From Lachnospiraceae oral taxon 107 str. F0167 (GTDB taxonomy: Bacteria > Bacillota > Clostridia > Lachnospirales > Lachnospiraceae): 64,000 nucleotides of DNA. Below, in pieces: positions 14,047 to 24,721 of this stretch (its first letter is position 1; every line of letters starts with the position of its first letter). The position numbers were made by a program, and so were the translations under genes. Under the pieces are notes generated by a model. That model was not told where the DNA came from, did not search any database, and was given only the letters and a program-made list of their open reading frames with translations. The DNA is taken from NCBI GenBank assembly GCA_000209465.1, contig GL890583.1, positions 348,422 to 412,421 on the forward strand, read 5' to 3'.

Positions 14047-14173
14047 CTATTGTACCGTTTCAAAACGGTCATTCACTTTATGGACTATCCGAGAAGAAAA
14101 CCGCTAAGACCGACACCTAAAACAACAAAAGAAAAGAACAAAGACAATCTAAAAGCGAAAGGAGTTGATAAGA

Positions 14174-15835
14174 GTGGCAGACAGTTTTCACTTTAATATT
14201 TCCATCATCTCAAGAGGGAAAGGAAAAAGTGCAGTCGCAAGTGCTGCCTATATTTCTTGTGAGAAACTCACGAATGAATGGGACGGAGTAACCCACGATT
14301 ATCACAACAAAAAAGGCTTGGAGCATAAAGAAATCTTCTTGCCGGAAAATGCACCGAAAGAATTTTTAGACCGTTCCATCTTGTGGAACAGTGTGGAGTT
14401 AAATGAAAAAGCCATCAGTGCACAGCTTGCAAGAAACTTCATTATTGCCCTACCCAAAGAGTTGAGTTTGGAAGAAAACAAAGACCTCATCAGGGATTTT
14501 ATACAGGAGAATTTTGTATCCAAAGGAATGATTGCAGACCTTGCCATTCATCAAGGAAATGATGAGGGAAACGGAAATATTCACGCTCATATAATGACAA
14601 CTGTTCGCCCCTTAAATTAAGATGGCGCTTGGGGAGCAAAGAGCAAAAAAGAATATCTTCTTGATGAACAGGGAAAAAAGATTTTAGGTAAAAACGGAAA
14701 ACCTAAAACAAGAAAAATTGACCTCACTGATTGGAACAACAAAGAAAATGCCGAGAAATGGAGAGAACATTTTGCCACACTTTGTAATCAATATTTAGAA
14801 ACAGCCGGAGAACAAAAACGAGTGGATCATCGCTCCTACAAAAGACAAGGAAAAGAAGAAATTCCGACCATTCATTTAGGAGCAAGTGCCGGTGCCTTAG
14901 AGCGAAAAGGAGTGGAAACCGAGAAAGGAAATATCAACCGAGAAATCAAAAAGCATAATTCTATTGTGAAAGCAGTGAGAGAAAGAATTGCAGAAATCAC
15001 CTCTTGGTTGAATGACTTTACCAAAGTCTTATTTGACAAATATGAGCAGTACAAACAGGAGAAGAAAGAAGAATATGAGAACAAAGTGGAACTCTTTTAT
15101 CTCTATGAGTACATCAGTATTTATTATGACTTACAGGGAGAAAAAGCAAGAAAACTAAACCCCTATGCAAGCAACAAAAAGATCAGTGCAGACCTCAACC
15201 GATTTTCCAAAGCAAGAATATATTTATCCGATAACAGATTGCAGACCATTGCAGATTTGCAAGGGAAAATCATCGAACTACAAGGCAAGAATAAGAACAT
15301 CTATCAGGACATCAAAGCCAAAACCCAAAGAATAGAAACACTTCATCAATGCCTTGTCTATGCAGACATTGTCAAAGCAAACAGAAAGGTTTATGAGGAG
15401 TGGAAAGGTAACCCCTTTTTGTTCAAAGACAGCTTCTACAATGCCCATCAAGAGGAAATCGACAAATACCAAAGAGCAAAAGGACGGATTGAAAAACTAA
15501 GTGGAGAAAGTGCCTTAAAGCCAAAGAGTTGGAAGAAAGAGATCGAGAGCCTTGAAAGTGAAACATCGAAACTCAACAAACAATCTCAATCTATCAAAGA
15601 TGAATACGAGCAAATCAATCATATCAAGTATGCCGTCAAAACCGTCAATGAGGATTATGGAATAGACCTATCCATTGAGATTGATAAGGCAATTAAGAGA
15701 GGAGAAAAACCAAGTGTCATTACACAGATTAAAAATACCAAGAGCAACAAGAAGCCTATGAAAAACGAAAGGAAAGGACAAAGGATTATTACAGGAATGA
15801 GGAAAGATGAAGTCCTGAAATGGGATACCATTTAA
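14174..15835 (+). pseudogene. MobA/MobL relaxase with in-frame ochre codon
   Basis: The start chosen is GTG 14174, reading VADSFHFNISIISRGKGKS, placed 9 bases after GGAG; TTG 14165 abuts that site and is less likely. The relaxase domain shows AVASAAYISCEKL, and the metal-binding motif is GNGNIHAHIMTTVRPLN. TAA at 14618-14620 then interrupts the frame, and the same frame continues as DGAWGAKSKKEYLLDEQG, ALERKGVETEKGN and a long coiled coil to 15835. Relatives usually carry glutamine at the stop (CAA to TAA). The truncated protein would lack most of the relaxase domain. This would leave the element dependent on a relaxase in trans. Confidence 0.85.
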
Positions 15836-16018
15836 GGGGGTGAAAAAATCGTTCACTCCTATAAGCTGACGCACTGTTTCAGTGCATAAGTTTTGCATAC
15901 CCGGTTTTAGGGACTTGCAGAAAAATGAAGGGTGTCGTAAATCACGACTTCCTTAAAGACTATGAGGGGAGTAATGATTTGTTACTCCCTTCTGCGTAAG
16001 AAAAGAAAGGAGAGAAAA

Positions 16019-16744
16019 ATGGCAGAAAGACGAATGTTTTCCAAGTCCGTTATCTGGTGCGATATGTTTTTAGAAATGCCTTTATCCTCACAGGCACTTT
16101 ATATGCACCTGAATATGAGTGCTGATGATGATGGATTTGTAGGCAATCCCAAAACAATATTGAGAATGATAGGAGCAAGTGAAGATGATTTTAAGATATT
16201 AGTTACCAAAGGCTTTGTGATTGTGTTTGAGAGCGGAATTATTGTGATTACGCATTGGAAACGAAACAACTACATTCAGAAAGATAGGTACAAGGGGACA
16301 ATCTATAAAGACGAAAAAAGCTATCTAAACATCAGTAACAATAATCTTTACGAGAAAAAGGAGCGTATTTGTATCCAAAATGTATCCGATTTGGATACAC
16401 AGGATAGGATAGGTAAGGATAGGTTAGATAAGGGTAGTATAGATAAGGGGAGAGGAGAAGAAGAAAGTCCCCCACCCCCAAACTCAAAAACCTATGGGGA
16501 ATTTCAAAATGTCAATCTAAGTGATGAAGAATATCAAAGGCTAAAGGAAAAGTTAAAAAGCCACACAAACACGATGGTTGAAAAGCTATCAAGGTATATG
16601 CAAAGCAGTGGAAAGACCTATCAAGACCATTATGCAACCTTGCTTCACTGGTATGAGAAAGATGAGGAAGAATTGCGAAAGAAAACAAATGATAGAAGCA
16701 AAGCTCCAACGATTGAGGAATATATGATAGGAGATCATCTTTAA
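16019..16744 (+). CDS. Replisome-organiser-like protein of mobile elements
   Basis: 241 residues from ATG 16019 after GAAAGGAGAG; a longer frame upstream has no ribosome site. The N-terminus (MAERRMFSKSVIWCDMFLEM, SSQALYMHLNMSADDDGFV, NPKTILRMIGASEDDF) is the winged-helix domain of phage and ICE replisome organisers. The middle is a low-complexity linker (DRIGKDRLDKGSIDKGRGEE then PPPP), and the C-terminus is a small helical domain. Probably helps replication or transfer of the element. Exact role unproven. Confidence 0.6.
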   Translation: MAERRMFSKSVIWCDMFLEMPLSSQALYMHLNMSADDDGFVGNPKTILRMIGASEDDFKILVTKGFVIVFESGIIVITHWKRNNYIQKDRYKGTIYKDEKSYLNISNNNLYEKKERICIQNVSDLDTQDRIGKDRLDKGSIDKGRGEEESPPPPNSKTYGEFQNVNLSDEEYQRLKEKLKSHTNTMVEKLSRYMQSSGKTYQDHYATLLHWYEKDEEELRKKTNDRSKAPTIEEYMIGDHL

Positions 16745-16968
16745 GATATGCTTAAAAGACGGTGCAAGCACTCTATTTTGTTTCTAAATGCAAAATAGGT
16801 AAAAAGATAAGCCAAAAAGAAAAAGAGCTTTAAAACGATTGCCACCGTTTTGTAGTGGGTTTACTAAAAATATTTCTTTATGGTATTTGGAAATGGAAAG
16901 GCTTGGAAATTAATGGTATAATAAAATTTAGGAGAAATAAAACATCATTGATTTGAGAGGTATTCACA

Positions 16969-17415
16969 TTGATAGAAATAAGAGAAGTTGTAGGAAATAA
17001 GAAGCAGTTTTTATCGCTTTTATTATTGGCAGATGAACAAGAAGATATGATCGACAGATATATAGCAGATGGCACAATGTATGTTTTAGACGATAATGGA
17101 GTAAAGGGCGAGTGTGTTGTCCTAAATGTGGGGAATAATACTCTCGAAATCAAAAATATCGCCATTCATCCGGATTATCAAAGAAAAGGATACGGACAGG
17201 CTTTCATTGATTTTATTATAGAGAAATACAAAGGGGAATATTCCGTATTGCAAGTGGGAACGGGAGAAAGTCAGACTACCATCCCTTTTTATGAAAAATG
17301 TGGCTTTATTCGTTCTCATATCATACCAAATTTTTTTACTGACAATTATGCTAACCCAATATATGAGAATGGAGTACAATTAGTGGATATGGTGTATTTG
17401 GAAAGAGCGTTATAA
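16969..17415 (+). CDS. GNAT-family N-acetyltransferase
   Basis: 148 residues from TTG 16969 after GAGAGG. The acetyl-CoA site is clear: LEIKNIAIHPDYQRKGYGQAF followed by VGTGESQTTIPFYEKCGF, typical of small YhfO-like GNATs in Firmicutes mobile elements. A TATAAT at 16916-16921 suggests its own promoter. Substrate unknown; no sign of a known resistance enzyme. Transposon cargo. Confidence 0.85.
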   Translation: MIEIREVVGNKKQFLSLLLLADEQEDMIDRYIADGTMYVLDDNGVKGECVVLNVGNNTLEIKNIAIHPDYQRKGYGQAFIDFIIEKYKGEYSVLQVGTGESQTTIPFYEKCGFIRSHIIPNFFTDNYANPIYENGVQLVDMVYLERAL

Positions 17416-17446
17416 ATCAATTTTAAAGTTGTGGAGATAAATATTA

Positions 17447-17932
17447 ATGTTGAGATTAAAACCTTATAATATAAACGAAGCAGATGTAATTCTTTCTTGG
17501 AGTAAAGACAAAGTAGCTTTTTACAAATGGTCTGCGGGTATTTTGGGCGAATACCCGATAACAAAAGAGAAGTTTGATTTTGTTAATAATCTAATGGCTT
17601 TTACAGCTATTGAAGATGATTAGATAGTAGGTTTTTTTACAATGAGAAGACCTTCAGAAAACTTTGATGAGTTGAGGTTTGGCTTTGTAGTCGTTGACCC
17701 TTCAAGGCGTGGCAAAGGATACGGCAAGAGAATGCTTCAGTTAGGTTTAAAGTTTGCATTTGAAATTTATGGTGCAAAAAAGGTTTCGTTAAGTGTTTTT
17801 GAAAATAATGAATCTGCATATTTCTGTTATAAATCAGTAGGTTTTGACGATGTAATTATAGATAAGACAGAAATTTATTATGTTTTGGGAGAAGAATGGA
17901 AATGTAAAGAATTGATGATTGAAACTCAATAG
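17447..17932 (+). pseudogene. GNAT acetyltransferase (RimJ/RimL-like) with in-frame amber codon
   Basis: The frame runs from ATG 17447 (MLRLKPYNINEADVILSW, KDKVAFYKWSAG) to TAG 17621-17623, then on in the same frame as IVGFFTMRRPSENFDELRFG, VVDPSRRGKGYGKRML (the acetyl-CoA loop) and NESAYFCYKSVGF. Relatives read a Glu or Gly near the stop, so one base change is enough. The downstream part has its own ATG at 17642, but that lacks the N-terminal strands. Probably inactive. It lies 31 bases after the other GNAT gene. Confidence 0.8.
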
Positions 17933-17975
17933 CTCCCAGTTTGTCGCACTAAAACATTAAATAAGATTACTAAAG

Positions 17976-18012
17976 AGGAAGTAAAAACCAATAGCCGATA
18001 CTTCCTTTTTTT
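17976..18012 (+). terminator. Hairpin with T-run before the TnpW-like gene
   Basis: AGGAAGTA (17976-17983) pairs with TACTTCCT (17999-18006) and is followed by a T-run. Confidence 0.55.
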
Positions 18013-18047
18013 GTTGCCAAAAATTCAAAAAATGGAAAGGAGAATTT

Positions 18048-18311
18048 ATGGAAGAACTGAAAAACACAGATAAAAAAGGCATTAGCACAAAGAGAAAGAT
18101 TGTAAAGACCACCTATGAGGTTGTTGTCCATTTCAATGAAAATGCAACTGAAACAATGCAAGATAAACTTACAAGAATAATGCTGAGGGAGCTTAGGAGA
18201 AAATCGAACGAAAAAAAGATGATTTTGATTAAAAAGTCCTTGACAAGTAGCAACAGGATTGGGCGCTGTAATACTTACTGTGGCACTTTCAAGAGTAAAA
18301 AGGCGGAATAA
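18048..18311 (+). CDS. TnpW-like small transposon protein running out of the element
   Basis: The first 55 or so residues match the TnpW-type family of Tn4451-like elements: STKRKIVKTTYEVVVHFNEN and ATETMQDKLTRIMLRE. An AAAGGAGA site precedes ATG 18048. The present frame passes through the right transposon end at 18258 into the split gene and stops at 18311. An A7 run at 18211-18217 lies near the expected end; one more A would give a natural stop at 18230-18232 (NEKKDDFD), inside the element. So the long tail may come from a one-base loss. Role in transposition is not well established. Confidence 0.55.
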   Translation: MEELKNTDKKGISTKRKIVKTTYEVVVHFNENATETMQDKLTRIMLRELRRKSNEKKMILIKKSLTSSNRIGRCNTYCGTFKSKKAE

Positions 18312-18741
18312 TATATCTGTTTTTATTTCAGGATTCTTTTTTGGAGGTGTTTTTGAGTATATATGTTCGGTGTTTACTGAAGTCTTCTTTGGAATGAAGT
18401 TTTGGGATTATTCATATATGCCTTTTAATATTGACGGAAGAACGAATCTTTTGTTTATGTTCTTTTGGGGTATAGTTGCACTGGTATTGTTTAGATTTAT
18501 TTATCCGCCGCTATCAAAAACAATTGAAAAGATTCCGCCTGTAACAGGAACTGTTTTAGCCTTTATAATAACGGCATTTTTTATCTGTAACGGTATAGTA
18601 ACATCCATGGTAATGATAAGGACAACCGGCAGAAAAGAACAACCTGTGGCAAGAAATGTAATAGAGCAGTTTATAGATGATGAGTATCCCAATGATGTGG
18701 TGAAAAAGCTTTGGCCGAATATGGATTTTTTGGAGGAGTAA
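18256..18741 (+). pseudogene. CmpB-type putative ABC transporter permease, 3' half
   Basis: The continuation of the gene that starts at 9189. It reads GLGAVILTVALSRVK, then FEYICSVFTEVFFGMKFWDY, PFNIDGRTNLLFMFFWGI and LSKTIEKIPPVTG, the C-terminal wording of the PF06541-type family, with four hydrophobic helices. Upstream of 18256 the same frame enters the transposon and hits TGA at 18241-18243. No ribosome site serves it, so it is probably not translated. The Rrf2 promoter starts 8 bases after its stop. Confidence 0.75.
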
Positions 18742-18760
18742 TGTAACTGTTGACATTACA
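18742..18760 (+). promoter_or_regulatory. Candidate Rrf2 operator, copy 1 (TGTAA-N9-TTACA)
   Basis: TGTAA (18742-18746) and TTACA (18756-18760) flank nine bases that include the -35 box of the Rrf2 gene promoter. The same spaced palindrome overlaps the promoter at 19381-19409. Predicts autorepression. Confidence 0.6.
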
Positions 18761-18777
18761 ATGACATATAGTATACT
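18750..18777 (+). promoter_or_regulatory. Sigma-A promoter of the Rrf2 gene
   Basis: TTGACA (18750-18755), 16-base spacer, TATACT (18772-18777). It lies inside what would be the longer frame from 18761, which supports the later start at 18845. Confidence 0.75.
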
Positions 18778-18844
18778 GATACCTAAAGATTGGAAGTCTG
18801 ATATAAATTTCCGGATTTTATATTATACGAAAGGGTTGACTTTA

Positions 18845-19273
18845 ATGCAGATTTCAAGCAGATTTACCATTGCATTACATATTTTTACATGTGTAGAATA
18901 TTTTAAGGATAGAGAAAAAATAACAAGTGACTTTCTTTCAGGAAGCATAAGCTCGAATCCCGTTATTATAAGAAATATACTTTCACAACTAAGAAAGGCA
19001 GGTCTGATTACTGTAGCAAGGGGAACAGGTGGAATAGAAATTACAAGAGATTTATCTGAGATTTCTTTTTATGATATATATATGGCGGTTGAGGCTGTAA
19101 AGGAAGAAGGGCTATTTCATTTTCATGAGTCACCGAATCCCATGTGTCCTGTAGGAAAGAATATACATAGATTACTGGATGACAAATTGGTGAAAATACA
19201 GGAAGCCATGGAAAATAAAATGAAAGAATATACTCTTTTAGATATAAAAAAAGGTATGGAAGAGTTTTGTTAA
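18845..19273 (+). CDS. Rrf2-family transcriptional regulator (YwnA-like)
   Basis: 142 residues. The start is ATG 18845 (MQISSRFTIALHIFTCVEYF), which follows the promoter at 18750-18777; the frame from 18761 would begin inside the promoter. The winged helix-turn-helix reads ITSDFLSGSISSNPVIIRNI and LRKAGLITVARGTGGIEITR. One cysteine (PNPMCPVGKNIH) lies where some relatives sense oxidants, but the three-cysteine cluster of FeS Rrf2 proteins is absent. TGTAA-N9-TTACA sits at its own promoter and again before the transporter genes, so it probably represses both. The signal is unknown; osmotic or thiol stress would fit the neighbours. Confidence 0.85.
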   Translation: MQISSRFTIALHIFTCVEYFKDREKITSDFLSGSISSNPVIIRNILSQLRKAGLITVARGTGGIEITRDLSEISFYDIYMAVEAVKEEGLFHFHESPNPMCPVGKNIHRLLDDKLVKIQEAMENKMKEYTLLDIKKGMEEFC

Positions 19274-19299
19274 AGATGCCTGTAGGGCATCTTTTTTGT
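19274..19299 (+). terminator. Terminator of the Rrf2 gene
   Basis: AGATGCC pairs with GGCATCT around TGTAG, followed by TTTTT, directly after the stop codon. Confidence 0.85.
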
Positions 19300-19380
19300 T
19301 TTTAGAGAGTAACATAAGGAAATGACAGCTTAAAAATGTAGGGACTTCCAAAGTATAATTTATTTTATATTTAAAAGGTA

Positions 19381-19409
19381 TTGACAAAGCAGTTGTAATG
19401 ATTTATATT
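19381..19409 (+). promoter_or_regulatory. Promoter of the SnoaL-remnant and betaine/choline transporter genes
   Basis: TTGACA (19381-19386), 17-base spacer, TATATT (19404-19409). The Rrf2-type palindrome at 19394-19412 overlaps spacer and -10 box. Confidence 0.7.
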
Positions 19410-19412
19410 ACA
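19394..19412 (+). promoter_or_regulatory. Candidate Rrf2 operator, copy 2 (TGTAA-N9-TTACA)
   Basis: TGTAA (19394-19398) and TTACA (19408-19412) with a nine-base spacer, extended to GTTGTAAT/ATTACAAC (8-base perfect arms). It covers the -10 box, so bound protein would block RNA polymerase. Confidence 0.7.
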
Positions 19413-19525
19413 ACAAGTAACAAATATTAATTTTAAGCTTTTTAATAATGTTTTAACATTAGAAGAATGGTGTAAAAATATTTTTATCACTATTTGTGCC
19501 ATCATTTGGCGGAGAGGAAATTATT

Positions 19526-19657
19526 ATGTCAGAGAAATTAAATAATGCAAAGAATTTATATATAAGAGGTATACAGGATGGAGAACTTGAAGAGGTTTTA
19601 TCCTGCTATATGGGAGAAAGTTATACTCAACACAGTACAGGTGTAGGAGAAGAATAG
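19526..19657 (+). pseudogene. SnoaL-like (NTF2-fold) protein, 3' truncated
   Basis: 43 codons after GGAGAGG: the reading NAKNLYIRGIQDGELEEV then SCYMGESYTQHSTGVGEE is the start of small SnoaL-like proteins of about 130 residues, where the text continues with a glycine-rich loop. Here TAG at 19655 ends it, and the next bases lead straight to the transporter gene, so the remaining two thirds were lost by deletion. It is the first unit after the operator-bearing promoter, which suggests the original operon had this protein first. Confidence 0.55.
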
Positions 19658-19722
19658 AGAAATAGTACCAAGCAGGGAGGAATTAACCAATTCGGGTAAG
19701 TTTTAGTACTTTAGGAGGATAA

Positions 19723-21261
19723 ATGATAAAGGAAATAGGGATATTATTAAGTACTAAATGGGATTTCTTTGGAAAGCTTTTGTTGGAGCATATTGAAATC
19801 TCATTGATTGCCATATTGATTGCAATAGTGTTTGGAGGTATAGTAGGGATTTTTATAAGCGAGTTTCAAAAAAGTGCAAAACTTACTTTGGGAGTTATAA
19901 ACTTTTTATATACGATTCCATCTATATCAATGCTTGGATTTTTAATACCTTTTTCAGGTATAGGAAATGCAACAGCTATTATTGCTTTGACAATATACGC
20001 ACTCCTACCTATGGTTAGAAATACATATACAGGAATGATAAATGTGGATGCAGGTATATTGGAAGCGGCAAAGGGTATGGGAAGTACCAAAAAGCAGATA
20101 CTTTTCAGAGTACAGATACCTCTTGCAATGCCTGTTATAATCTCAGGAATCAGAAATATGGTTACAATGACAATAGCACTTGCAGGTATTGCTTCATTTA
20201 TCGGAGCCGGAGGACTTGGAGTAGCTATTTATAGAGGCATTACCACAAATAATGCCGCAATGACTATAACAGGAAGCTTGCTTATCGCAGTTTTGGCATT
20301 AGCGGTAGATTTTATCCTTGGATTTGTTGAAAAAAGAATGCAGATAAATGGAAAGGCTGCAAAAAAGCAAAACAGAATACTTGCTGTCATTTCGCTTGTC
20401 TTAATTTTTTGTATCTTGATTGTAGGATTACTTCCGAAGAAAAACAAAAATATAATCCATCTTGCGACAAAGCCTATGACTGAACAATATATTCTTGGTG
20501 AGATGTTAAAATTATATATAGAAAATAATACAGATTTATCCGTAGATATTACACAGGGAGTAGGTGGAGGAACCTCAAATATAGAACCGGCTATGGAAAG
20601 CGGTGAGTTTGATCTCTATCCGGAATACACAGGTACAGGTTGGAATATGGTATTAAAACATGAAGATCAGTACGGTGAAGAACAATTTGATATTTTACAA
20701 AAAGAATATCAGGAAAAGCTCGGACTTACATGGGATGTAATGCTTGGCTTTAATAACACCTACGGCATTGCCCTTAGAAGAGATATTGCCCTAAAGAATG
20801 ATATAAAAACATATTCCGATTTACAAAAACTGAATGGGAAGCTTATTCTTGGTGCCGAATATGACTTCTTTGAGCGTCAGGACGGATATGATATGTTAAG
20901 AAAAACATATAATCTTTCATTTGCCTCTACAAGTGATATGGATATGGGACTTAAATATCAGGCGATAAACAGCGGTAAAATAGATGTAATGCCTGTAAAT
21001 ACTACAGACGGTCAGCTGTCTCAGGCGGATGTTGTACTTCTTGAAGATGATAAAGGAATGTATCCTTCATATCAGGCAGGAATGGTGGTCAGAGAAGAAA
21101 TATTCAACAAATATCCACAGCTTCACAGTGCTTTGCAAAAATTTGATAAGCTGATAAATGAGTCGGATATACAGAGGATGAACTATGAAGTGGAGAGTGA
21201 AAAGAAAGAGCCGAGGGATGTTGCAAAGGCATTTTTATTAGAAAAAGGGCTTATAGAATAG
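19723..21261 (+). CDS. Glycine betaine/choline ABC transporter, fused permease and substrate-binding protein
   Basis: 512 residues. Residues 1-210 are the OpuCB/OpuBB-type permease with five or six helices and the EAA loop LEAAKGMGSTKKQILFRVQI. Residues 245-512 are an OpuAC-like binding protein facing outward: MTEQYILGEMLKLYIENN, GVGGGTSNIEPAMESGEFDL then YPEYTGTGWN. Fusions of this kind import quaternary ammonium osmoprotectants. The aromatic box residues can be guessed (YPEYTGT, tyrosines and tryptophan) but not assigned. AGGAGG precedes ATG 19723. The ATPase gene follows after 8 bases. Precise ligand (betaine, choline or carnitine) is open. Confidence 0.9.
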   Translation: MIKEIGILLSTKWDFFGKLLLEHIEISLIAILIAIVFGGIVGIFISEFQKSAKLTLGVINFLYTIPSISMLGFLIPFSGIGNATAIIALTIYALLPMVRNTYTGMINVDAGILEAAKGMGSTKKQILFRVQIPLAMPVIISGIRNMVTMTIALAGIASFIGAGGLGVAIYRGITTNNAAMTITGSLLIAVLALAVDFILGFVEKRMQINGKAAKKQNRILAVISLVLIFCILIVGLLPKKNKNIIHLATKPMTEQYILGEMLKLYIENNTDLSVDITQGVGGGTSNIEPAMESGEFDLYPEYTGTGWNMVLKHEDQYGEEQFDILQKEYQEKLGLTWDVMLGFNNTYGIALRRDIALKNDIKTYSDLQKLNGKLILGAEYDFFERQDGYDMLRKTYNLSFASTSDMDMGLKYQAINSGKIDVMPVNTTDGQLSQADVVLLEDDKGMYPSYQAGMVVREEIFNKYPQLHSALQKFDKLINESDIQRMNYEVESEKKEPRDVAKAFLLEKGLIE

Positions 21262-21269
21262 GAGGATTT

Positions 21270-22064
21270 ATGGCAATAGCTATTGAGTTTTCACATATAA
21301 GAAAAAGTTATGGAGATACGGTAATTATACCGGATTTGAATTTACAAATAGAAAAGGGAGAGTTTGTTACCATTGTAGGCTCTTCAGGTTGTGGAAAAAC
21401 TACCGCTTTAAAGATGATTAACGGACTTTATGAGCCTACATCAGGAGATATTTTTGTAAATGGAGAAAATATCAAGAATATAGATATGATTAGGTTAAGA
21501 AGAAGTATCGGCTATGCTATACAGGGCAGTGTTCTATTCCCGAATATGACGGTTGAAGAAAATATTTCCTATGTTCCAAGCTTATGGAATAAAAATGACA
21601 AGGAAAAGACTAAAAAGGCTGTGGATAAATGGATGGAGGTAATAGGTTTGGATCCGTCAATGAAGGACAGATATCCGTCAGAACTTTCAGGAGGGCAGCA
21701 ACAAAGAGTAGGAATTGCAAGAGCACTTGCGGCATCTCCTGATATTTTATTGATGGATGAGCCATTCGGAGCGGTAGATGCGATTACAAGAGAGCAATTA
21801 CAAAATGAGTTGAAGTCTTTGCATAAAAAAACAGGTATTACCATATTATTTGTCACTCATGATATTGAAGAGGCATTAAAGCTTGGTACAAAGGTTTTGG
21901 TACTTGATAAGGGTGAGATAGAGCAATTCGATAAGCCGTCTGAGATAGTGCAAAACCCTGCCACGAATTTTGTAAAAAAGCTTGTGGAAAAGCAAAGGAG
22001 AGCCTGCAACCTGCCTGATGAAAAGCTTAGAGAGTGCGAGTATTGCGGTGCATATATTCTTTAA
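21270..22064 (+). CDS. Glycine betaine/choline ABC transporter ATP-binding protein
   Basis: 264 residues. Walker A is VGSSGCGKTTALK (36-48), the Q-loop is IGYAIQGSVLFPN, the signature is LSGGQQQRVGIARAL and Walker B is ILLMDEPFGAVD followed by the VTHDIEEAL switch. It lacks the CBS pair that OpuCA-type ATPases use to sense ionic strength, and ends instead in a short Cys-containing tail (NLPDEKLRECEYCGAYIL) that could bind metal. GGAGG precedes ATG 21270. It is the motor for the fused permease/binding protein directly upstream. Confidence 0.9.
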   Translation: MAIAIEFSHIRKSYGDTVIIPDLNLQIEKGEFVTIVGSSGCGKTTALKMINGLYEPTSGDIFVNGENIKNIDMIRLRRSIGYAIQGSVLFPNMTVEENISYVPSLWNKNDKEKTKKAVDKWMEVIGLDPSMKDRYPSELSGGQQQRVGIARALAASPDILLMDEPFGAVDAITREQLQNELKSLHKKTGITILFVTHDIEEALKLGTKVLVLDKGEIEQFDKPSEIVQNPATNFVKKLVEKQRRACNLPDEKLRECEYCGAYIL

Positions 22065-22079
22065 AAGCAGGAGGTATAT

Positions 22080-22481
22080 ATGAATCAAAATGAAAGACCG
22101 GATTTTCTTATAGATGCTTTTAAGGAAGAATTTTGGTCATAGTGGTCGAAACATATTTATTTTAACAGATATATTGATACCCGAAAGCCTGTATATAAAG
22201 ATTCGTTTTAATTGGTAAAGGATAAGTACTATTTTATAATTACTACAAATGTTGACCACAGGTTTCAAATGGAGGGATTTGACAAGAACAGGCTTTTATA
22301 CACACAGGGTGATTATGGTTTGTTTCAGAGCACAGATACAAATTGTAAAGATACCTATGATAATAAAAATTCGATTTATGCCTGCTTAAATTTGAAAGAG
22401 GCATTTTGCCCTGAAAGTATAAATAGCAGAAGTATATGTATAGATGGGGATATTGGAGAAGTATTGAAAGAATTAAAATAA
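22080..22481 (+). pseudogene. Sir2-family protein fragment with two in-frame stops
   Basis: A good AGGAGG site precedes ATG 22080, 15 bases after the ATPase gene. The text SKHIYFNRYIDTRKPVYKD and LVKDKYYFIITTNVDHRFQ, FDKNRLLYTQGDYGLFQ is the middle of a Sir2-type NAD-dependent protein, including the ITTNVDH and YTQGDYG motifs. The NAD-binding GAGxS start is missing, and TAG (22140-22142) and TAA (22209-22211) interrupt the frame, where relatives carry ordinary residues such as Tyr and Glu. The C-terminal zinc region is not recognisable. Inactive remnant of the last gene of the transporter operon. Confidence 0.75.
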
Positions 22482-22518
22482 ATATTATAGAAATATAAAG
22501 CGATTTTGATAAACGGAA

Positions 22519-22561
22519 AACACCCACACATTGGATAAAAAATCCGATGTGGGGGTGTTTT
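22519..22561. terminator. Bidirectional terminator between the Sir2 remnant and hicB
   Basis: AACACCC...CACAT-GGAT pairs with ATCC-ATGTG...GGGTGTT and has a T-run on the plus side and an A-run on the minus side. It serves both converging transcripts. Confidence 0.8.
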
Positions 22562-22907
22562 ATATACTGATTTTAGCAGCAGGAGAATTATTTAAAGTTT
22601 CTTCAATATATTTGTTTATAGATATCTTATTACTTGTTGCATATACAAAGATTTTCTTGTGGAGTTCTGGTGAAAGACGAATATTAAAACTTCCCTTAAA
22701 TGCAACTTCAGGTTCTTTACCCTGAGCCTTACAAGTATCCAAATAGTCATCAACAGCACCATGAAAATCATCTAACAGTTCTTTAGCATTTTCACCTTCA
22801 TAAGAGATCAATGATCTTATACCTAAGACTTTTCCAAAGAAAATACAGTCTTCTTCAGAAAATTCAACGCTTCCGATATATCCTTTATACATAATAGTAT
22901 TATTCAT
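22560..22907 (-). CDS. hicB: HicB-type antitoxin
   Basis: 115 residues. The N-terminal HicB fold reads MYKGYIGSVEFSEEDCIFFG then SYEGENAKELLDDFHGAVDD. The C-terminal ribbon-helix-helix reads GSFNIRLSPELHKKIFVYAT. HicB proteins bind the partner toxin and repress the operon. Its ATG overlaps the TGA of hicA (ATGA overlap), the usual coupling. Expressed leftwards after hicA. Confidence 0.9.
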   Translation of the reverse strand: MNNTIMYKGYIGSVEFSEEDCIFFGKVLGIRSLISYEGENAKELLDDFHGAVDDYLDTCKAQGKEPEVAFKGSFNIRLSPELHKKIFVYATSNKISINKYIEETLNNSPAAKISI

Positions 22908-23158
22908 ATGAGTCCCTCCTGTTCTAGAATTATTATAAGTTGTTTTATTTGATATGCCTTTAATTCTTTTTGTGGATGTGGTTTATGAAGCAAAATACTC
23001 CCAAAGCTATTATTAACAAAGATTACTCTGGAACCACTGGTTTTTCCTTTGTTTGAACGAACATAGCCGAAGTAGTTTAATAGGGTTTCTGCATCATTAA
23101 AAGTAAAATCTTTAGGATTAGACTTGAGATGTTTTATAAGTTTTTCTTTTTGCCCCAT
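22904..23158 (-). CDS. hicA: HicA-type mRNA interferase toxin
   Basis: 84 residues, the normal size. It has the double-stranded RNA-binding-like fold: KLIKHLKSNPKDFTFND, LNYFGYVRSNKGKTSGSRVI and LLHKPHPQKELKAYQIKQL. The catalytic histidine is in LHKPHP. AGGAG precedes ATG on the minus strand. It is first in the hicAB operon and is held in check by HicB. No inactivating change seen. Confidence 0.9.
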   Translation of the reverse strand: MGQKEKLIKHLKSNPKDFTFNDAETLLNYFGYVRSNKGKTSGSRVIFVNNSFGSILLHKPHPQKELKAYQIKQLIIILEQEGLI

Positions 23159-23379
23159 AGCATTTCTCCTTTTCTATATTATATCTTATTGAAGATAATT
23201 TTACAACTAAAAATAGTTGCAAAATTATTTGTATGTTTTATGTACTAATATATCTCCAGTATGAGGAAAGAGTTTTATTTATTTAATAATTGAGATATAA
23301 TTTATATATTTAAGTATAGTGGAATTTATAGAATAAATTTTTATAAAATATTAAGTTAAAAAAAGAAGGGAAGATAGAT

Positions 23380-23626
23380 ATGAAGACTATAAGTATTAGA
23401 TTAGAGGATTCAATTTATGAAGAATTAGGGAAAATGCTGGATGAAATGGGACAGACTAAACAGACATTCTATGAGACATTTACAAAAACTGCATTGAGAG
23501 AGAAGTATTCCATTTATTATCAAAACTCCTTTATCGGATAAAAATAGCAATAATAGAAGAAAAATAGAGGCATTTGAAAGATTAGAGACGGTAAGAAAAG
23601 AAAATAAAGGAGAAATTGATTATTAG
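23380..23626 (+). pseudogene. RelB/DinJ-like antitoxin, frameshifted
   Basis: From ATG 23380 after AAGAAGGGAAG it reads MKTISIRLEDSIYEELGKML then MGQTKQTFYETFTKTALRE, the ribbon-helix-helix start of RelB/DinJ proteins. At about 23498 the frame slips and ends at a stop. One frame over, the natural end continues as IPFIIKTPLSDKNSNNRRKI, AFERLETVRKENKGEIDY and ends at 23626. A single indel after LRE explains it. No partner toxin is nearby. The EamA gene starts 40 bases later. Confidence 0.75.
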
Positions 23627-23665
23627 GGTATATGGAATAAATTTATACACAAGGAGTTTTTGAGT

Positions 23666-24721
23666 ATGAACAAGAATAATAGAATTGTATCAGTATTTTT
23701 TGCATTACTTGCGGCAGCTTTTTATGCAATAAATACGCCATTTTCCAAGCTGCTGCTTGATAAGATAGCTCCTACATTTATGGCATCTTTTTTGTATCTT
23801 GGAGCAGGAATTGGTGTAGGAATAATGTATCTATTTCATGCCAAGTCGGAGGATAAATTTGAAAGGCTTACAAAGGAAAATCTTTTATATACGGTAGGTA
23901 TGATAGTTTTGGATATTCTGGCACCGATTTTTTTAATGATAGGGATAAATACAGGTTCAGCTTCCAATGCTTCATTACTTGGCAATTTTGAGATTGTTGC
24001 TACAGCAATCATAGCACTTTTGGTATTCAAGGAAAGTGTAACACTAAGGCTTTGGTGTGCCATAGTTTTTATTACGATATCAAGTATAGTTCTTTCATTT
24101 GAGGGTACGGGAAGCTTTAAGTTTTCTATAGGCTCATTATTTGTTATATTGGCAACCTGCTGCTGGGGGCTTGAAAATAATTGTACAAGAAAGCTTGCAG
24201 ATAAAAGTACATATGAGATAGTATTTTTAAAGGGTATTTTTTCAGGTACAGGTTCATTTTTAATTGCAATTTTTATAGGCGAAAGTATCCCTGAAATCAA
24301 ATATATGATATTTGCTCTATTGCTTGGATTTGTAGCCTATGGTCTTAGTATCTTTATGTATATAAGGGCTCAAAGAGATTTGGGAGCTGCAAAAACCGGT
24401 GCATATTATGCGGTAGCTCCATTTATAGGTACCTTTTTGGCTTTTATTGTAAATGGAGAGAGGCTGACGGCAGTATATTTTATAGGTCTTATTTTTATGA
24501 TAATAGGAAGTACGATTGTTATATATGATACAATGCTAAAAAATCATATACATTATCATATACATACAATTGTTCATACACATAACGGTTCCACTCATAA
24601 ACATATTATTAAACATGAGCATAAACATAAACATTTTGTTTCAGAAAAAAATCATTATCATAAACATGATGATTATATAAATAGCGATGAACATAAACTG
24701 ATGCATGATAAGAATTTGTAG
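23666..24721 (+). CDS. EamA/DMT-family transporter with a His-rich cytoplasmic tail
   Basis: 351 residues from ATG 23666, 9 bases after AAGGAG; the earlier TTG has poor spacing. Ten hydrophobic helices form two EamA repeats (VFFALLAAAFYAINTPFSKL, then LATCCWGLENNCTRKLADKS). The tail from about residue 295 holds 17 histidines in HxH and HxHxH patterns (HIHYHIH, HKHIIKHEHKHKH), unusual for this family. It may bind zinc, nickel or another divalent metal and sense or buffer it, as His-rich loops do in cation exporters. Transport substrate is unknown. Confidence 0.85.
   Translation: MNKNNRIVSVFFALLAAAFYAINTPFSKLLLDKIAPTFMASFLYLGAGIGVGIMYLFHAKSEDKFERLTKENLLYTVGMIVLDILAPIFLMIGINTGSASNASLLGNFEIVATAIIALLVFKESVTLRLWCAIVFITISSIVLSFEGTGSFKFSIGSLFVILATCCWGLENNCTRKLADKSTYEIVFLKGIFSGTGSFLIAIFIGESIPEIKYMIFALLLGFVAYGLSIFMYIRAQRDLGAAKTGAYYAVAPFIGTFLAFIVNGERLTAVYFIGLIFMIIGSTIVIYDTMLKNHIHYHIHTIVHTHNGSTHKHIIKHEHKHKHFVSEKNHYHKHDDYINSDEHKLMHDKNL

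Follow-up and report, generated by a model that had tools for sequence, protein, structure and literature searches.

Two exact TGTAA-N9-TTACA palindromes lie at the promoters of an rrf2 gene and of a transporter operon in the window (the whole stretch of 64,000 nucleotides that was analyzed). Judged from the sequence and its comparison with relatives, they are very likely the operators of the adjacent SifR/YwnA-type redox repressor, which would act on its own gene and on the transporter operon. Repression of both transcription units is the best reading because the published operator of the SifR/YwnA class is this same motif. The sites, their overlap with promoter-like boxes, the family of the regulator, the conservation of the sites and the specificity of their spacing were observed directly.

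Two palindromes overlap the predicted rrf2 and transporter promoters

The locus was found to contain the following features, given in window coordinates.

18742..18760, no strand: candidate operator 1, TGTAACTGTTGACATTACA, exact TGTAA-N9-TTACA; contains the -35 box of the rrf2 promoter
18750..18777, + strand: predicted rrf2 promoter, TTGACA (18750), 16 nt, TATACT (ends 18777); consensus scan 11/12
18845..19273, + strand: predicted SifR/YwnA-type Rrf2 repressor, 142 aa; Pfam Rrf2 PF02082 at 96.1 bits, cut-off 30
19272..19294, + strand: intrinsic terminator-like hairpin 3' of rrf2 (inverted repeat I4)
19381..19409, + strand: predicted promoter of the transporter operon, TTGACA (19381), 17 nt, TATATT (ends 19409); consensus scan 11/12
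19394..19412, no strand: candidate operator 2, TGTAATGATTTATATTACA, exact TGTAA-N9-TTACA; spans the -10 box of the transporter promoter
19526..19703, + strand: SnoaL-like gene remnant of which the start and the final 17 residues are left (tblastn with the protein of a relative, blastn against L056)
19723..21261, + strand: EgtU-like fused permease and substrate-binding protein, 512 aa; Pfam BPD_transp_1 and OpuAC
21270..22064, + strand: ABC ATPase of the transporter, 264 aa; Pfam ABC_tran
22080..22481, + strand: first 17 codons of a macrodomain gene, then SirTM-like sirtuin fragments with stop codons (tblastn, blastn against L056)

The sequence-only reading had described the palindromes as a matched pair that overlaps promoter boxes, and this was confirmed. 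A pattern search found both exact and in place, with the same half-sites and the same spacer, and the consensus scan placed the -35 box of rrf2 within palindrome 1 and the -10 box of the transporter operon under palindrome 2. An inverted-repeat search found perfect arms, GTTGTAAT/ATTACAAC, across 19392-19414 at operator 2. The two promoters were the best two among 20 promoter-like sites in 18600-22700, a total that is not above that of shuffled sequences (mean 18.7). The terminator-like hairpin between rrf2 and the transporter operon fits separate promoters for the two units. The start of rrf2 was set at 18845, since the ORF extended to 18761 would have its start codon 5' of the point where transcription is predicted to begin. 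A search of 18600-22600 against Rfam gave no family at or above its gathering score, which speaks against a known structured RNA in the leader.

An exact pattern search of the window found no second exact site near either palindrome. In some relatives the operators are paired, at a distance of 49 bp (7 of 14 close pairs) or 42 bp (4 of 14), where the count of 14 takes one place twice (L036 and L166). Paired operators were seen at several SifR-linked promoters (L035, L036, L155, L164, L167, L168, and others), and one partner usually contains TTGACA.

Frequency, conservation and spacing of the motif

The window holds two exact matches to TGTAA-N9-TTACA against 0.14 expected, and 2 of 100 shuffles gave two. 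The source genome (3.29 Mb) contains 25 sites with the N9 spacer, compared to 7 with N8, 10 with N10 and 5 for the N9 motif read backwards. By mechanical ORF calling, 22 of the 25 N9 sites fall within reading frames, L003 and L023 among them at roughly 50 bp or less from the ORF start; the other three are both window sites and one site 43 bp beyond a stop codon. Genes thus often contain the plain motif, and it is the placement of the window pair at promoters that is special. A refined pattern, TGTAAY-N7-RTTACA, was derived from 61 unique exact sites of related loci. Position 6 was C or T in 95% of these sites, and TTGACATTACA was present, in one orientation, in 23 of them. The refined pattern had three exact matches in the 3.29 Mb genome, namely both window sites and one in a reading frame.

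Both palindromes were exact in all six Lachnoanaerobaculum genomes of the own-genus comparison, which was made without gaps (the genus was assigned through the named loci L056 and L057). All 20 half-site columns were invariant in the six genomes, compared to 23 of 70 and 9 of 60 flanking columns at site 1 and 21 of 70 and 7 of 60 at site 2. The sequence TTGACAA located 5' of site 2 was invariant in all six as well.

For other genera we used 25 rrf2 loci, hand-picked with one per genome at approximately 45-68% identity, some of which share a genus. Counted at any position in these loci of about 2-3.4 kb, in promoters or otherwise, 29 exact N9 sites were found in 15 loci, while spacers of 7, 8, 10, and 11 gave 0, 0, 0, and 1 sites and 40 shuffles a mean of 0.15. 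With at most one mismatch there were 43 N9 sites in 20 loci; the same spacer controls gave 2, 1, 1, and 2 sites and the shuffles 2.58. Five of the 25 loci (L039, L040, L117, L118, and L125) were without a site within one mismatch. Two rrf2 loci were excluded despite an identity at or above the limit, L134 (45%, with an exact site) and L145 (48%, a second copy in its genome, with no site). Among own-genus loci with one mismatch, spacer 8 gave 10 sites in 6 loci vs. 17 for N9, so that loose matching is less clean there.

The halves TGTAA and TTACA are similar to the boxes of several other regulators. With the plain motif present 25 times in the genome, the palindromes could be bound by another regulator that recognizes a dyad, the neighboring Rrf2 being incidental. 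We consider this improbable, because exact N9 sites stand in 15 of the 25 rrf2 loci, at a shuffle mean of 0.15, and because TGTAA-N9-TTACA is the operator published for the SifR protein class. Even further from likely is that the palindromes are chance occurrences in AT-rich promoters. With two mismatches allowed the window does contain 110 pattern matches vs. 64.6 expected, but the half-sites are invariant in the genus and the spacing is specific in other genera; spacer controls, shuffles and genus conservation together rule out a chance origin for practical purposes. The prediction of the sequence-only reading that Rrf2 represses itself and the transporter operon is well supported by comparison, that is, by the published SifR/HypR operator, by the spacing-specific co-occurrence and by the conservation in the genus. 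The name "osmoprotectant" that it gave to the transporter needs correction.

The Rrf2 regulator

The closest PDB chains to the Rrf2 protein were 1ylf and YwnA 1xd7. Its Cys101 lies within HESPNPMC, which matches HxxPNPxC. A cysteine was found at this position in all 35 sequences compared (that of the window included), with several relatives differing at the H, P or N positions. Further cysteines are located at positions 16 and 142, and sensing may for this reason differ from that of SifR. Of the 35 SifR homologues in the comparison, 25 have Cys16 and ten carry another residue there, which may point to a second redox cysteine in some members of the family. For S. pneumoniae SifR, the reported operator is TGTAA-N9-TTACA, identified by analogy to the core motif of HypR; its sensor is reported to be Cys102 of HxxPNPxC, the modification of which by quinones leads to release from DNA, and HypR uses Cys33 and Cys99 (PMC9218516).

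We infer binding, repression, quinone sensing and the transporter ligand, and for dimer binding, promoter occlusion and release through Cys101 we follow the SifR work (PMC9218516). An Rrf2 homodimer would bind TGTAA-N9-TTACA at both sites and would obstruct RNA polymerase, at the rrf2 promoter through the -35 box and at the transporter promoter through the -10 box. An electrophile, for example a quinone, would modify Cys101, upon which Rrf2 would leave the DNA and both transcription units would be induced jointly. The induced product would be an EgtU-like importer, with ergothioneine or a related betaine-type compound as its cargo, and not a general osmoprotectant system. A redox-repressor switch of this kind is already known from Streptococcus; here it is probably joined to a transporter with a cargo other than a simple osmoprotectant. 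The bare pair of palindromes thereby becomes a testable redox switch in anaerobes.

L. saburreum carries a second SifR paralogue (L052 in G004, 1501-1935), which is 67% identical, has sites of its own and adjoins SnoaL-like and PNPOx-like genes (names assigned by eye). In the genome of the window no second SifR match was present among the matches listed. A preprint gives weak evidence (q = 0.09) for an association of a Lachnospiraceae Rrf2 protein resembling SifR with abundance in cirrhosis (PMC13404960), which makes the targets of this protein in Lachnospiraceae of interest.

The transporter resembles EgtU

The fusion of permease and binding protein has an ATPase gene beside it, which is the arrangement of EgtU. 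The nearest NCBIfam model to the ATPase was proV, which at 283 bits fell short of its cut-off of 326.6. The best PDB chain for the fused protein was 8dp6 (H. pylori EgtU), with E 8.8e-71 by sequence and E 1.8e-88 with a profile of 20 relatives. A model of the binding domain (mean pLDDT 91.6) matched H. pylori EgtU with Z 35.3, 1.4 A rmsd and 45% identity, and 8dp7, the same protein with ergothioneine, was among the structure matches with Z 29.8. As a sign of ergothioneine binding, the closeness of the modeled domain to the H. pylori EgtU structure is no more than suggestive.

The positions of the ergothioneine pocket were taken from the pneumococcal list in PMC9732360 and were placed by motif and residue numbers, not by letter-by-letter alignment. 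On this placement Lys242, Thr275, Thr296, Asn339, Tyr341, Arg379, and Tyr443 are kept in the window transporter, while Ile243 is changed to Pro, Gly244 to Met, Thr274 to Gly, Phe293 to Tyr, Tyr337 to Phe, Glu375 to Asp, and Tyr419 to Asn. Gly244 and the Phe293/Tyr337 switch, which mark pneumococcal EgtU, are therefore absent (Met; Tyr/Phe). The aromatic cage residue at Tyr419 is also absent, since the window and the clade's 13 other distinct records have Asn there; if position 419 is placed off by one, the residue is Val and likewise non-aromatic. The reading as a plain pneumococcal EgtU was rejected, since the specificity positions are not retained. Pneumococcal EgtU with I243P, with T274G and with both was crystallized with ergothioneine (titles of 9egj, 9egi, and 9o5f), hence the changes to Pro243 and Gly274 are compatible with binding. 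The missing specificity marks and the presence of Asn419 in the whole SifR-linked clade make ergothioneine uncertain as the ligand.

Asn419 was found in 14 distinct records, that is, the window, two more of the genus and 11 of other genera (L087 is the window itself, and L088, L089, and L090 repeat L058, L064, and L069). Within up to 2.3 kb upstream, the 11 records of other genera had the exact motif in 7 cases and a site with at most one mismatch in 9, and for all 14 records these numbers were 10 and 12. One member of the Asn clade, L063, had no site in 2.3 kb upstream. The 27 loci with transporters of the Phe/Tyr419 type had no exact motif and a site with one mismatch in 8 loci, where the upstream DNA covered was mostly 1.5 kb or less vs. 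mostly 2.3 kb for most Asn records. For L060, the upstream DNA covered was 663 bp. No other transporters are as close to the query as those of the Asn clade, and the operator and the Asn may for this reason share one origin.

Two other readings leave binding of Rrf2 to the sites untouched. The sensor could respond to thiol-disulfide exchange (HypR-like, with two cysteines) or to another redox signal and not to quinones. HypR is reported to use the identical motif (PMC9218516). Cys16 is present in 25 of the 35 sequences compared, and the protein has a weak match to the NCBIfam HypR equivalog, which at 44.1 bits is below the cut-off of 180, so that identity with HypR itself was rejected. We nevertheless find this reading rather unlikely, because the context of the conserved cysteine, HxxPNPxC, is of the SifR/YwnA type and the nearest PDB sequences are 1ylf and YwnA. 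It is also doubtful that the transporter is a true importer of osmoprotectants (glycine betaine, choline or carnitine), in which case Rrf2 would control osmoprotection. The Pfam OpuAC domain, a more distant similarity to ProX/OpuC and Tyr residues that correspond to 293, 341, and 443 agree with such an importer. However, among solved structures H. pylori EgtU comes nearest (45% identity), the SnoaL-like partner is as in the pneumococcal egtU operon, and the regulator belongs to a redox class and not an osmotic one; Asn at cage position 419 fits neither class cleanly. A simple osmoprotectant label is weakened by the nearness to H. pylori EgtU and by the pocket residues.

We keep to the reading of a redox repressor that would control an EgtU-like importer, and the name of the transporter has to be corrected: its binding domain is EgtU-like, with 8dp6 closest, and not that of a demonstrated osmoprotectant system. 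The view that an Rrf2 regulator is uncommon for this transporter needs correction as well, since there is a precedent in the pneumococcal egtU operon, which is described as partly SifR-regulated (PMC9732360).

Gene decay and neighboring genes

The SnoaL-like remnant lacks approximately 200 bp compared to L. saburreum DSM 3986, and its counterpart in L057 matches Pfam SnoaL_2 and SnoaL. A SnoaL2 gene accompanies egtU in the pneumococcal operon (PMC9732360). In 18000-23500 no obvious MarR-like ORF was recognized, an apparent difference from the pneumococcal egtU operon. At the place of the macrodomain and sirtuin fragments, about 1.8 kb of additional sequence is present in L. saburreum DSM 3986 (tblastn, blastn against L056). 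Within the genus, the second operator is located directly before the macrodomain gene, with no intervening transporter, in G001, G002, and G005, while in G000, G003, and G004 a snoaL-transporter block, whole or decayed, lies between the two.

Several neighbors of the locus were recorded. A HicB antitoxin and HicA toxin pair (22560-23158, - strand; Pfam HicB 72 bits, HicA_toxin 38.5 bits) follows directly behind the decayed sirtuin. Mobile-element genes are found just before rrf2 (14165-18311, + strand), with a MobA/MobL family gene at 14165 and TnpW at 18048. Beside them is a CmpB-family gene (18259-18741) that is apparently shortened compared to a 419-aa ORF in L057. An EamA-type permease (23660-24721) has a very His-rich C-terminal tail, and an EamA-like gene, identified by eye, is instead located directly upstream of rrf2 in G001, G002, G003, and G005.

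A possible wider regulon in relatives

In relatives, a macrodomain gene and a sirtuin were found behind a TGTAA-N9-TTACA operator. The macrodomain protein matched the NCBIfam protein-ADP-ribose hydrolase with 313 bits (cut-off 272). The PDB entry closest to the sirtuin was 5a3a, "SIR2 family protein" (E 7e-27), which we take to be SirTM of S. pyogenes; no Pfam family matched the sirtuins of L031 and L057.

The macrodomain protein was matched in 142 of 250 family genomes. Among the best 30 of these 142 loci, 10 had the exact motif and 10 a SifR homologue within the locus. When the two loci closest to the genus were left out (L146 of the own genus and L147 of a close relative, both with exact sites), exact sites were found in 8 of 28 loci, 13 in total, against 0.17 in shuffles and none at spacers 7, 8, 10, and 11. 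The excess was smaller with one mismatch, with 20 N9 sites vs. 7, 2, 6, and 7 at these spacers. The macrodomain and rrf2 sets of loci overlap at least at G012.

YwnB-like, PNPOx-like, cupin and SnoaL-like genes were likewise found behind such sites in relatives. The motif precedes a YwnB-like gene in L059, L036, and L119, where the NAD(P)H-binding domain was tested for L059 only and the YwnB name, as well as the calls for L036 and L119, were made by eye. A YwnB-like gene is described as a direct SifR target (PMC9218516).

These gene orders suggest, at the level of sequence, a SifR regulon that covers both betaine-type uptake and ADP-ribosylation. We give even chances to the following extension: that a SifR-type electrophile sensor is, in Lachnospiraceae and certain further Bacillota, the direct regulator of a recurring redox module made up of a macrodomain/SirTM-like ADP-ribosylation pair, of SnoaL-, YwnB-, and PNPOx-like enzymes and of a distinct Asn-cage clade of EgtU-like transporters, the ligand of which would be a betaine-type thiol, either in place of ergothioneine or in addition to it. 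The window would then be a reduced version that keeps only the regulator, the operators and the transporter. If this is true, the ADP-ribosylation pair gains a named transcriptional regulator. A literature search, which left most subscription papers outside, found no report tying SifR to macrodomain/SirTM genes. The kind of locus is already known, as a SifR-type switch with a link to egtU; the wider regulon, although unproven, is the interesting part, as a pointer to a single regulator for betaine-type uptake and protein ADP-ribosylation.

Comparison with known systems

The operator core of HypR from Staphylococcus aureus is, according to PMC9218516, identical to the motif found here, whereas the window protein is below the cut-off of the HypR model (44 of 180 bits). 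The Zn-macrodomain/SirTM ADP-ribosylation pair is matched in relatives by a macrodomain gene and a 5a3a-like sirtuin behind the same operator; the window has fragments only, while the macrodomain gene is whole in relatives.

With the S. pneumoniae egtU operon (spd_1642-1645) the locus shares the fused permease and binding protein, the ATPase, the SnoaL-like gene and the link to SifR (PMC9732360). It differs by the loss of the Gly244, Phe293/Tyr337, and Tyr419 specificity positions and by the decay of the SnoaL gene. H. pylori EgtU (8dp6, 8dp7) is the closest solved structure, with 45% identity and shared TKP, GGGT, and EYTGT motifs, and it has Phe at the position of pneumococcal Tyr419, where the window has Asn. 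Compared to SifR of S. pneumoniae and YwnA of B. subtilis, the predicted regulator adjoins its own operator and an EgtU-like operon and has the extra Cys16 and Cys142, but it shares with them the Rrf2 domain, the conserved cysteine in HxxPNPxC and, at the level of sequence, TGTAA-N9-TTACA at the predicted target promoters.
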